This document shows positions 9,756 to 37,360 of a DNA stretch of 64,000 bases, piece after piece. Each line of letters starts with the position of its first letter. Position 1 is the stretch's first letter. Made by a program: the position numbers and the translations under genes. Source of the DNA: Deinococcota bacterium (GTDB lineage Bacteria; Deinococcota; Deinococci; Deinococcales; Trueperaceae); assembly GCA_963170125.1 (NCBI GenBank), contig CAUJFI010000052.1, forward strand, positions 1 through 64,000, given 5' to 3'. The notes beneath the pieces are model-generated. The model worked only from the letters and a program-made list of their open reading frames with translations, searched no databases and was not told where the DNA came from.

Positions 9756-10607
9756 GTGACCGCCTCGGCTGCCGCCACCACGCTCGAGGTCCGTGACGGC
9801 GTCAGCCTGTCGCTGAGCAGGTGGCGACCGGAAGCACCGGTCGGCGCGCTCGTCATCGTCCACGGTTACGGGGAGCACGCTACCCGGCACCTCGACCTGG
9901 CCAAGAGCGCCCAGGCAGTGGGCTACGACGTGTTCGCCCCCGACCTGCGCGGCCATGGCAAGAGCCCCGGCGTGCGTGGCGGCGTCCCGGGGTTCGAGGG
10001 GATCATCGCCGACCTGGCGGTGGTCTTCGCGCAGGCGCGCGCAGCCAACCCCGGGCTCCCGATCCTGCTCTTCGGCCACTCCATGGGCGGCGCCGTCGCG
10101 CTGCGTTACGCCCTGGAGCGACCCGCGGAGGTTAGCGCGCTCGCCCTCTCATCGCCGTTCCTGCGGGACGCCGTCGTGCGCCCGGCCTGGCTCCTCGCCG
10201 TCGCGGGCTTCCTCGGCAAGGTCTTGCCGAACCTGCCGACCGTGAAGCTCGACCCCGCCCTCATCTCGCGCCACCCCGCCGAGGTCGAGCGTTACCGCAC
10301 CGACCCGCTCATATACCACGGCGGCGTAAGGGCCAACGCCGGTGCCACCCTCACGGCCCAGGGGGCGGAGCTGCTGGCGCGCGCTCCCGGACTCACGGTG
10401 CCGACGCTCGTGATCGTCGGCACGGCCGACGGCATCGCGGACCCCGCCGGCGCCAGGGCGTTGGCCGCCGCGAGCGACCGCGTGAGACTCGAGGAGCTGC
10501 CCGGCGGCTTCCACGAGCTGCACCACGACGACCCGGGAACGGGCGTGCCGGAGCAGTTCAAGCGCCTGCTCGTCGCGTGGTTGGAAGCCAACGCGCGGCG
10601 CGCTTAG
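9756..10607 (+). CDS. Alpha/beta hydrolase, monoacylglycerol-lipase-like
   Basis: A 283-aa serine hydrolase of the lysophospholipase/monoglyceride lipase group. It has the oxyanion strand VIVHGYGEH, nucleophile elbow GHSMGG with Ser109, and the DLRGHGKSPG segment typical of this group. The acid lies in the GTADG segment and the His in GGFHELHHD. No signal peptide is seen, so it is cytoplasmic. The GTG start at 9756 begins 3 nt after the purC-purS stop, so it is probably cotranscribed, though no metabolic link to purine synthesis is evident. Confidence 0.85.
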   Translation: MTASAAATTLEVRDGVSLSLSRWRPEAPVGALVIVHGYGEHATRHLDLAKSAQAVGYDVFAPDLRGHGKSPGVRGGVPGFEGIIADLAVVFAQARAANPGLPILLFGHSMGGAVALRYALERPAEVSALALSSPFLRDAVVRPAWLLAVAGFLGKVLPNLPTVKLDPALISRHPAEVERYRTDPLIYHGGVRANAGATLTAQGAELLARAPGLTVPTLVIVGTADGIADPAGARALAAASDRVRLEELPGGFHELHHDDPGTGVPEQFKRLLVAWLEANARRA

Positions 10608-33414: not shown

Positions 33415-34158
33415 CTAGGTCCTGCCCTCGTCCTGCCGCGCGAGGCTCTCCGGGAGGCGGCCCATCTGGACCGCCTCCGCGACCATCGGCGAGATGCCCC
33501 AGGCGACGATCTCGAACGCCACCGCCGCGTAGTCGTACTCCATCTTGTCCATCTCGATCTCGACGGAGCCGTCCTGGATGGTCAGCACCGCGTAATCGGC
33601 GCCGGGCTCGCCGTTGAGCGACAGACCGACGGAACCGGGGTTGATGACCAGACCCGTCGGCCCCACGCGGCGGAAGAACGGCACATGGGTGCCGCCGGCC
33701 GCCAGGACGGTACAGCGGTTCCTCTCGAGGAGCCGAGTCAACGAGTGGGGGTCCTGGTTGAGGTTCAGGGGCTCGCCCGTGTCCTCGGCCGTGCCGTGGA
33801 AGAAGCGCAGCCACCCGACCGGGGTCGAGAGGCGCTTCTGGATGGGTAGGCTCCGGAGGAACGTCAGGTGCCCCGGCTCCAGGACGCCGAGCGTCCAGGC
33901 GAGGATGTCGTCGGCCACGCCCCGCCTGCGCTTGCCCGAGGCCGCGAAGCCGTACGCCAGCCGCTCGTCGGCCGCGCCCATGGTGCACATGACGCGCTCG
34001 GAGCGGATGAGGTCGAGGGTCTCGTTCGGAGCCGGCCCGTAGCCGACCAGGTCGCCGAGGCATACGATGGTGTCGACCCCCCGACGCTTCATGGCCGTCA
34101 GGGCGGCCTCCAGGGCGATGACGTTCGCGTGCACGTCGCTTATCACCCCGATGATCAC
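33415..34158 (-). CDS. YfcE-like metallophosphoesterase-fold protein with degenerate active site
   Basis: A 247-aa protein with the fold and early motifs of metallophosphoesterases: SDVHAN (D8, H10) and GDLVGYGP (D36). Motif III, normally GNHD or GNHE, is GAAD at 61-64, so the metal-bridging Asn and the catalytic His are gone. Motif V, normally GHTH, is GGTH at 155-158. A His in FFHG (121) remains. The start is a GTG at 34158. Either it binds metal weakly and acts as a non-enzymatic protein, or it uses a different chemistry. It follows the M42 peptidase gene on the same strand. Confidence 0.8.
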   Translation of the reverse strand: MIIGVISDVHANVIALEAALTAMKRRGVDTIVCLGDLVGYGPAPNETLDLIRSERVMCTMGAADERLAYGFAASGKRRRGVADDILAWTLGVLEPGHLTFLRSLPIQKRLSTPVGWLRFFHGTAEDTGEPLNLNQDPHSLTRLLERNRCTVLAAGGTHVPFFRRVGPTGLVINPGSVGLSLNGEPGADYAVLTIQDGSVEIEMDKMEYDYAAVAFEIVAWGISPMVAEAVQMGRLPESLARQDEGRT

Positions 34159-34239: not shown

Positions 34240-35295
34240 TCAGTCGCGGCCACCGAGCTGGACGCCTTCGCGCAGGAACGCCGTCAGGAGCTGGACGGCG
34301 CCCTCGAGGTCCGACTTCGAGACCATCTCCGTGACGGTATGGACGTAACGCGACGGCGTGGAGATGGTGAACGACGGCGCGCCATCGCGGGCCGCCTGCA
34401 GCGCGGCGGCGTCGTTGCCGCCGAGCGGCAGGACCTCGAGCTGGTAGGCGATGCCGTGCTTCTCGGCCAGCGCTATGAAGTGGTCGAGTAGCCAGCGGGT
34501 GCTGATGATGCTCGAGTCCATCACCTTCAGCGCCGTGCCCTTGCCGAGCTGCGTGACGCGCAGGTGCTCGGGGATCTCGGGTGTGTCGACCGCCAGCGTC
34601 GTGTCGAGCGCGATGCCGACATCAGGCGCGACCGCGTAAGCGCCCGTCCTGGCGCCGCGCAGGCCGACCTCCTCCTGGGTGGTGAAGACGGCGTAGAGGT
34701 CTGTCGCCATGCTCGCCGCGTCGAGCCGCTTGATGGTCTCGATGAGGATCCAGCAGCCCGTGCGGTCGTCGAGGGCCTTGCCCGTGACGACGGCGCCCAG
34801 GTCCTCGAACGGTTGCCTCAGGGTGACCATGTCGCCGAGGCGAACCTTCGCCCTGACCTGCTCGCCGCTCAAGCCGAGGTCGACGTAGAACTGGTCGAGC
34901 GTCGGCACCTTGGTGCGCTCTTCGGGCGTGCTGATGTGGATGGGCTTGCCGGCCGGGTTCATCACGCCGACGAGCGTCTCGCTGGAGACGGAGGCGTGCA
35001 CGAGCACCTGGCGCGCGAAGAGGTTGCGCGGGTCGAAGCCGCCCAGTTGCTGCACGCGCAGGAACCCCTTGTCGTCGATGTGCCTGACGAGGAAGCCGAT
35101 CTCGTCCATGTGAGCGGCCACCATCACCTTGGGCGCGCCGGGCCTCGCGCTGCGCTTGACGGCGGTCAGGTTCCCGAAGGCGTCGACGCTCAGCTCGTCG
35201 ACCAGGCCGGTCAGCTCGGCGCGCACGACGGCGCGCACCTGCTCCTCGCGCCCTGGCACCCCGGGCGCTTCACTCAGGCTCTTCAGCAGATCCAT
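34240..35295 (-). CDS. M42-family aminopeptidase
   Basis: A 351-aa co-catalytic dizinc peptidase of family M42 (glutamyl/TET aminopeptidase-like). Metal and catalytic motifs: AAHMDEIG, DDRTGC, TTQEEVGLRGA, ALDTT and PSRYVHT, in the family order. These enzymes form cytosolic tetrahedral dodecamers that trim peptides. The ATG at 35295 has -10 TACACT (35303-35308) 7 nt upstream. It is probably followed by the degenerate phosphoesterase in one transcript. Confidence 0.92.
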   Translation of the reverse strand: MDLLKSLSEAPGVPGREEQVRAVVRAELTGLVDELSVDAFGNLTAVKRSARPGAPKVMVAAHMDEIGFLVRHIDDKGFLRVQQLGGFDPRNLFARQVLVHASVSSETLVGVMNPAGKPIHISTPEERTKVPTLDQFYVDLGLSGEQVRAKVRLGDMVTLRQPFEDLGAVVTGKALDDRTGCWILIETIKRLDAASMATDLYAVFTTQEEVGLRGARTGAYAVAPDVGIALDTTLAVDTPEIPEHLRVTQLGKGTALKVMDSSIISTRWLLDHFIALAEKHGIAYQLEVLPLGGNDAAALQAARDGAPSFTISTPSRYVHTVTEMVSKSDLEGAVQLLTAFLREGVQLGGRD

Positions 35296-35415: not shown

Positions 35416-36429
35416 TCAGTGTGCGCTCAGCCCCTGGCCTCCCAACCAGGCCGCGACGCGGTCGACGAACTGCCCCGGGCACTCCTCCTGCGGGAGGTCG
35501 CCGCAGGCGTCGAGGCGCTCGAGGGTTGCGTTGGGGAGCTCGGTCGCCAGGCGTTCCGACTCGCTCGCCGGCACGCTGCCGGCCGCCGCGCCGACCAGCA
35601 CGAGCGCCGGGGCCGCCACGCCGCCCAGGCGCTCTGCGAGGCTCGGCGGGGCGCCGGCGAGGGTCACCTGCCACAGGGCCGCGTCCCAGCCTTCGACCGT
35701 GGTGCCGACGGACCGCGCCGCGCGTTGAGCCGGCGTGATCCGGCTAGCGTCGAACCATGCGCCGGTGTAGAGCTGCTCGCCAGGTTGTCCGGCGAGCTGG
35801 CGCATGAACACGGGCCCGAGGCGCGCGAGCTGTGGCGTGCGCAGCACCCACCTTGGCGCGCCGCCACCCTGCTGCAACAGGTACGCCGGCGTGCCGACCA
35901 ACACGAGGCCCGCGACCAGGTCCGGCCTGGCGCTGGCCACCTCGAGGGCGAGCACCCCGCCGGCGTTGTCGCCGACGAGCACGACGTCCGAGAGGCCGAG
36001 GCGCTCGATCAGCGCCACGGTCTGCTCCACCTGCGCCGCCTGGGAGTATGGGCCTGCGCCCGAGCCCAGGTCCGGCGGGGCCGGCCTCTCGCTCAGACCG
36101 AAGCCCGGGCGGTCGAAGGCCACGACGTCGCCGTACCGCGCCAGGTCGTCGAGGACGAGGTTGAACGAGAACGCGTTGGAGCCGTAAGCGTGCAGGAGCA
36201 CGAACGAGATGGGAGCGCCCCCCGGTCCGGAGTAGGGGCGTCGCACGGTGTAGAGCTCGACGGAGCCTACCGGTACGAGGCCGGCGTCCGGCCTGGCGGC
36301 CTGCGCCACGGCCTCCGCCAGCGGCCGCGTGCCGGAGGGGGCGCCGATCGGCACGACGAGGGGCACGACGACCACCAGCGCGACGAGCAGCGCAACGATG
36401 ACGAGTGAGACCTTGATGCGAAACGGCAT
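35416..36429 (-). CDS. Membrane-anchored alpha/beta-hydrolase-fold protein lacking the catalytic triad
   Basis: A 337-aa protein. An N-terminal hydrophobic helix (about 7-27) anchors it, or acts as a signal sequence. The rest is a typical alpha/beta hydrolase fold: VLLHAYGSNAFSFNLVLDDLARYGDVVAFDRPGFGLSERP. The nucleophile elbow is GDNAGG, with Asn155 where Ser, Asp or Cys is expected. The His position reads ACGDLPQEECPGQF, with Asp in place of the His of the usual GHxPxxExP. The acid loop is LVGAAAGSVP, without Asp. The codons are clear. The ATG at 36429 has -10 TAACAT (36435-36440) 5 nt upstream. It is probably a pseudoenzyme; the function is unknown. Confidence 0.84.
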   Translation of the reverse strand: MPFRIKVSLVIVALLVALVVVVPLVVPIGAPSGTRPLAEAVAQAARPDAGLVPVGSVELYTVRRPYSGPGGAPISFVLLHAYGSNAFSFNLVLDDLARYGDVVAFDRPGFGLSERPAPPDLGSGAGPYSQAAQVEQTVALIERLGLSDVVLVGDNAGGVLALEVASARPDLVAGLVLVGTPAYLLQQGGGAPRWVLRTPQLARLGPVFMRQLAGQPGEQLYTGAWFDASRITPAQRAARSVGTTVEGWDAALWQVTLAGAPPSLAERLGGVAAPALVLVGAAAGSVPASESERLATELPNATLERLDACGDLPQEECPGQFVDRVAAWLGGQGLSAH

Positions 36430-36532
36430 GCCCCATGTTACGTGCGAGGTGCCGTCGCTCAACGTCTCACCCCCTGGCGGCGTGGCAGTCGGGAACGCGC
36501 CCGTCGTCAGGCGCGCCGCGGCCGACCAGCGG

Positions 36533-37360
36533 TCAGCTGTCCGTCCATTCGGGGGCGCGCTTCTCCAGGAAGGCGCTCGTGCCCTCACGCATGTCCGTCG
36601 TCGTCGCGATCATGCCGAAGAGGTCGGCCTCCACCTCGAGGCCCTGCTGCAACGTCACGTCGAGGCCCCTGAACACGGCCTCCTTGGCGAGGCCGAGGGC
36701 GATGGGGGCGTTCCGCGCCGCCTGCCTGGCCAGCGCCACGGCAGTGGCGAGCGCGTCGTCAGCGACCCGGTTCACGAGGCCGAGCTGCAGCGCCTCCTCG
36801 GCCTGCACGTGGCGGCCGGTGAGGATGAGATCGAGCGCGCGCCCGACGCCGATCAGCCGCGGCAGGCGCTGCGTGCCGCCGAAGCCCGGGATGAGCCCAA
36901 GGCCGACCTCGGGAAGGCCGAGGCGGGCGCTCGTGGCCGCCACGCGCAGGTCCGCCGCGAGGGCCAGCTCCAGGCCCCCGCCGAGTGCGAAGCCGTTGAT
37001 GGCCGCCACAGTGGGGAAGGGGAGCGAAGCGAGCGTGTTCGCGACCTCCTGGCCGCCGAGCGACGTCTCCCTGCCCGCGAAGGCGTCGCTCAGGTCGCGC
37101 AGAGCGGCGATGTCGGCCCCGGCCACGAACGCCCTGCCGGCGCCGGTGAGCACGAGGGCGCGCACGGCCGAGTCGGCCGCCGCCAGCTCGAAGACGAGCC
37201 CCAACTCGAACAGCACGTCCTGGTTGAGGGCGTTGAGCGCCTCCTGGCGGTCGATCGTGACGATAGCGACCTCGCCGTCGACCTCGTAGCGCAGGTGTTC
37301 GAAGCTCACGTCCTCGGGGGCGTGGTCCTCGAAGCCCCCGGCCAGCTCGTTGTCGGTCAT
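36533..37360 (-). CDS. Enoyl-CoA hydratase/isomerase
   Basis: A 275-aa crotonase-fold protein. The CoA oxyanion region is AGRAFVAGADIAAL. The catalytic Glu segment is NGFALGGGLELALAADLR, and the second Glu is in LGLPEVGLGLIPGFGGTQRL. The N-terminus has an extra acidic stretch of about 20 residues. It hydrates 2-enoyl-CoA in beta-oxidation. It lies 64 nt downstream of the 3-hydroxyacyl-CoA dehydrogenase gene on the same strand, so the two probably share a transcript. Confidence 0.92.
   Translation of the reverse strand: MTDNELAGGFEDHAPEDVSFEHLRYEVDGEVAIVTIDRQEALNALNQDVLFELGLVFELAAADSAVRALVLTGAGRAFVAGADIAALRDLSDAFAGRETSLGGQEVANTLASLPFPTVAAINGFALGGGLELALAADLRVAATSARLGLPEVGLGLIPGFGGTQRLPRLIGVGRALDLILTGRHVQAEEALQLGLVNRVADDALATAVALARQAARNAPIALGLAKEAVFRGLDVTLQQGLEVEADLFGMIATTTDMREGTSAFLEKRAPEWTDS

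Follow-up and report, generated by a model that had tools for sequence, protein, structure and literature searches.

The 64,000-nucleotide stretch of Deinococcota DNA analysed here (the window) carries on its minus strand a 337-AA open reading frame that starts with ATG at 36429 and whose stop codon ends at 35416 (35416-36429, stop included). From ORF calls, a profile match and orthologues, it was assigned as the gene of a pseudohydrolase, a protein of alpha/beta hydrolase fold devoid of the catalytic triad. All features described below lie on the same strand unless stated otherwise. Upstream there is an enoyl-CoA hydratase-like gene (36533-37360), a conserved neighbour, and downstream an M42-type aminopeptidase-like gene (34240-35295), which is found beside it in the window's genus and some others; a metallophosphoesterase-like gene (33415-34158) is again a conserved neighbour. 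In most Trueperaceae examined, members with an intact triad and members that have lost it (intact and dead members) share a conserved cluster composed of hydroxyacyl-CoA dehydrogenase, enoyl-CoA hydratase, the hydrolase-fold gene, M42 peptidase (in some), metallophosphoesterase and thiolase, the neighbours being named by sequence appearance.

Five bases before the start codon lies a -10-like element, TAACAT (36435-36440), in a leaderless arrangement, which we recognised by orthologue comparison. TANNNT elements that adjoin the start codon and give leaderless mRNAs are common in Deinococcus-Thermus (PMC12340547). Such a hexamer occupies positions -11 to -6 in five of the six species of the genus that were compared (TAACAT in four, TACCAT in G002), 29 of 30 orthologues have a pyrimidine at -1, and a related element of the type TTNAAT stands at roughly this position in intact orthologues. 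The first-pass annotation had credited the gene with a leaderless promoter of its own; the element looks real, but it is not special, being typical of the phylum and common to the intact orthologues. For the same reasons the promoter was rejected as a sign of a special role, and the -10 signal has no bearing on the loss of catalysis.

The encoded protein matches the Pfam profile Abhydrolase_1 (PF00561) at 3.3e-16, with 60.2 bits against a curated cut-off of 25.8. Its match to the Ndr profile is weak and below the cut-off, and a search of the NCBIfam profiles gave no match near any curated cut-off. The structure model (pLDDT 90.2, pTM 0.89) has a normal nucleophile elbow formed by strand 149-154, residue 155 and helix 156-167, and the same order of structural elements is seen in the model of one intact orthologue. 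The profile score, the predicted elbow geometry and many PDB matches together place the protein in the alpha/beta hydrolase fold; the fold matches are broad and include haloalkane dehalogenase, C-C hydrolase, esterase and PlaF. The oxyanion-loop motif reads H80-A-Y-G83 (36181-36192; HGFG in intact members), and a cap region comprises residues ~184-258 (35656-35880), in which Y239 has changed to R. Dead proteins have clade-specific insertions at residues 37-40 (juxtamembrane, 36310-36321) and 184-186 (cap start, 35872-35880). It had been proposed that the fold motifs around the lost triad are well kept, and indeed both the fold and the active-site neighbourhood are retained.

At the N-terminal end, residues 2-25 (36355-36426) are predicted to form a membrane helix, as judged by the DSSP assignment (H2-25), a hydropathy maximum of 3.29 from residue 8, and conservation. 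The segment MPFRIKVSL with which it starts (36403-36429) is nearly invariant in Trueperaceae, although overall identity is often only ~40%, and this conservation appears to exceed what a simple anchor needs. The basic N-terminus suggests an N-in, C-out topology with the domain outside the cytoplasm. Residues C309 (35503-35505) and C317 (35479-35481) are likely disulfide partners: both are present in 83 sequences, neither in 9, and one alone in 1. This covariation, within the CGH-to-EEC motif, is consistent with a disulfide and with a domain outside the cytoplasm.

Among the solved matches that cover part of the membrane helix the best is PlaF, a membrane phospholipase A from Pseudomonas aeruginosa (PDB 6i8w), with a profile match over positions 12-326, nearly full length, at 8.5e-29 and ~19% identity. 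The two proteins share an N-terminal membrane helix, a juxtamembrane helix and a capped alpha/beta hydrolase domain. PlaF is catalytic (S137, D258, H286) and exposed to the periplasm, with fatty acids bound in its cleft (PMC9132575), whereas the window protein has this architecture without the triad.

The changes read by the first-pass annotation at the three catalytic positions, with their coordinates and motifs, all proved correct when the alignment columns were examined. The nucleophile elbow carries N155 (AAC, 35965-35967) in GDNAGG, where intact members have Ser. The acid column is A283 (GCC, 35581-35583), in an AAAGSVP loop (residues 281-287) free of Asp, the residue of intact members. 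The histidine column is D311 (GAC, 35497-35499) in ACGDLPQEECP. A replacement acid after strand 6 was also considered and rejected, since residues 172-187 of the window protein contain neither Asp nor Glu after strand 172-178. The window protein thus has none of the Ser, Asp and His of a serine-hydrolase triad.

S155, D283 and H311 are present in all 86 other aligned members, 25 from Trueperaceae and 61 mostly from Chloroflexota. The Chloroflexota members came from a scan with motif patterns that require a CG[HD] or WD motif, with the best 80 of 358 kept, and the CG[HD] pattern makes this sample lean towards members intact at that end; members broken at either motif could have been missed. Within the window's genus, Ser and His are absent from all six species compared and all three residues from five of them. 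The same changes occur in independent genomes, which rules out a sequencing or gene-calling artefact. Orthologues with normal triads, named beforehand as an observation that would speak against a pseudoenzyme, do occur in other genera, and none was found within the genus; triad loss is therefore lineage-specific and stepwise.

A close match (E below 1e-25), usually one per genome, is carried by 35 of the 39 genomes of the taxonomic family, and four have no match at this threshold. The named relatives among the best 80 of 358 belong to Trueperaceae (Deinococcota) and Chloroflexota, mainly Anaerolineae; two records in this set are labelled as archaeal metagenome bins. The intact Trueperaceae and Anaerolineae orthologues (loci L008-L030 and L039-L112) have the same fold and N-terminal membrane helix as the window protein, and in Trueperaceae their genes mostly share its gene cluster. 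Ser, Asp and His, all lacking from the window protein, are kept in these orthologues, and the window protein also differs from them by its small insertions at 37-40 and 184-186. The window protein is the positional orthologue of these intact enzymes. A search of its genome for a close paralogue found none, the next best matches being at ~6e-9. This rules out a recent duplicate beside an active copy, and it means that the protein is no surplus copy that regulates an active member of its own subfamily.

Intermediate stages of the loss were found in two genomes. In the sister-genus genome G009, residue 155 is Gly while Asp and His are kept; in G002, of the window's genus, residue 155 is Gly, residue 311 is Arg and Asp is kept. 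The other five species have Asn at 155, Ala or Pro at 283, and Asp at 311. In a protein tree built without the triad columns, the seven serine-less members form a clade (support 99/93) and so do the five triple-loss members (100/99); the branching of G002 versus G009 gets little support there (65/20). In a tree of four neighbouring genes, which is independent of the hydrolase-fold protein itself, G009 branches outside the genus, followed by G002 and then by the five; the seven are supported at 85/92, the genus at 94/93 and the five at 100/100. Given this order, the simplest account is that Ser was lost first, His next and Asp last. The occurrence of both Gly and Asn at residue 155 may reflect one loss with a later change, or two losses.

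Pairwise maximum-likelihood dN/dS is 0.066-0.100 in the closest trio of dead genes versus 0.048-0.107 in four close intact pairs; more distant pairs, saturated at synonymous sites, were left out. In the five triple-loss species the five old active-site segments are 75% invariant versus 49% elsewhere, a level matched by 4 of 600 circular shifts. For five intact members the corresponding values are 70% and 58% (33 of 600 shifts). The former active-site region is still the most constrained part of the protein, and these segments are its structural core too. Measured against the neighbouring genes for enoyl-CoA hydratase and hydroxyacyl-CoA dehydrogenase, the dead gene evolves faster than its counterpart in intact genera, and some loosening along the way is possible; relative to the metallophosphoesterase neighbour it is not faster. 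This faster evolution, with the four family genomes that gave no match at the 1e-25 threshold, would fit a loss of function under relaxed selection in a frame that is still unbroken. Such decay is disfavoured and we regard it as very improbable: the frame is open in all six species compared, dN/dS stays at 0.07-0.10, the active-site segments, the -10 element and the initiator base are conserved, and the metallophosphoesterase comparison gives no acceleration. Around the catalytic motifs and in the cap, a number of sites changed and were then fixed in the clade (82, 89, 155, 181, 239 and 311, with 283 being Ala or Pro), and these changes look like refitting, not erosion. Catalytic residues have been lost while purifying selection acts and the gene is kept across species, as expected of a dedicated pseudoenzyme.

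The fixed replacements might also be read as the active site of an enzyme of a new type, in which N155, D311, R239, Y82 or other conserved polar residues would catalyse a different, e.g. non-hydrolytic, reaction. Five species with 65-90% identity have fixed N155 and D311, as well as several further replacements, and the AAC codon of Asn155 is at least two bases away from TCN, the type of Ser codon read in three intact relatives. However, ~55% of the core columns are invariant among the five triple-loss species, so that fixed N155 and D311 by themselves are not unusual. Moreover, the classical nucleophile, general base and acid are all gone, and in G002 two of the sites read Gly and Arg. We consider a new catalytic activity improbable.

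Somewhat better placed, but still unlikely, is a structural or partner role, in which the fold and membrane helix would dimerise or bind another membrane protein with the pocket unused for ligand. The high conservation of MPFRIKVSL and the membrane helix is consistent with it, as are the changes at clade sites near the catalytic motifs (82, 89, 181), and PlaF dimerises via its membrane and juxtamembrane helices (PMC9132575). Against this, the old active-site segments are still the most invariant part, and the genome holds no close paralogue to serve as a partner.

The pseudoenzyme status of the window protein is well supported, and so is the earlier proposal of a dedicated pseudoenzyme at the membrane, given the membrane helix, the genus-wide triad loss, purifying selection and the retained fold and active-site neighbourhood. 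A putative role as a lipid- or ligand-binding receptor, also suggested by the first-pass annotation, is plausible. Our main reading, to which we give a probability of roughly 0.5, is that a membrane-anchored hydrolase lost catalysis stepwise and was kept as a non-hydrolytic binding or sensing protein for an acyl or other hydrophobic ligand. In this view an alpha/beta hydrolase that occurs in Trueperaceae and Chloroflexota, anchored in the membrane and with its domain probably outside the cytoplasm, lost Ser, then His, then Asp in one Trueperaceae lineage. The dead protein would have been retained, most likely with its capped pocket, in which a small ligand, acyl or otherwise hydrophobic, may be held next to the membrane without being hydrolysed, and the protein would thereby act in binding or sensing. 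The computations show the triad loss and its order, the orthology, purifying selection, the conservation of the old active-site segments and the predicted fold; topology, ligand class and the part played in binding or sensing are inferred. We infer the acyl ligand from PlaF and the neighbouring beta-oxidation-type genes; it is only one option, as the closest matches by fold range widely over esterases, C-C hydrolases, haloalkane dehalogenases and PlaF.

Non-catalytic alpha/beta hydrolases are a known kind of protein and, to our knowledge, are mostly known from eukaryotes. The plant hormone receptors GID1 and D14/KAI2 share the logic of using a hydrolase fold for ligand perception; they are soluble proteins, and D14/KAI2 keep the triad. 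Their relation to the window protein, which has D14 among its PDB matches, is at superfamily level only. Whether hydrolase-derived plant proteins act as receptor or enzyme is discussed in PMC3531792. NDRG and other non-catalytic proteins of this fold have, like the window protein, kept the fold without catalysis. The NDRGs are eukaryotic, of another lineage, and without such a membrane helix. A limited search of the open-access literature found no bacterial non-catalytic hydrolase of this kind; as far as searched, a bacterial membrane-anchored case in which one locus has intact orthologues as well as ones with a single, double or triple loss is new. The broader view, that a membrane lipid hydrolase has turned into a lipid or signal receptor in bacteria with the single-, double- and triple-loss stages still living at one conserved locus, is put forward tentatively, as a possibility with the odds against it. 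Since intact proteins and those lacking one, two or three of the residues exist in related species, the path from enzyme to pseudoenzyme is directly testable with natural proteins.

Two other alpha/beta hydrolases were observed in the same genome. One lies on the plus strand of the window (9846-10535) and keeps its GHSMGG motif. The second (L116; genome G000, contig C10, 4689-5168, minus strand) has GHGFGA, with Gly replacing the nucleophile Ser, and keeps Asp and the His of GHYPW. At the nucleophile site of this type, every locus read has Gly (Ala once, in L129), namely 12 loci of Trueperaceae and eight that represent four further families of the order, so that the L116 type looks like an order-wide nucleophile-less hydrolase.
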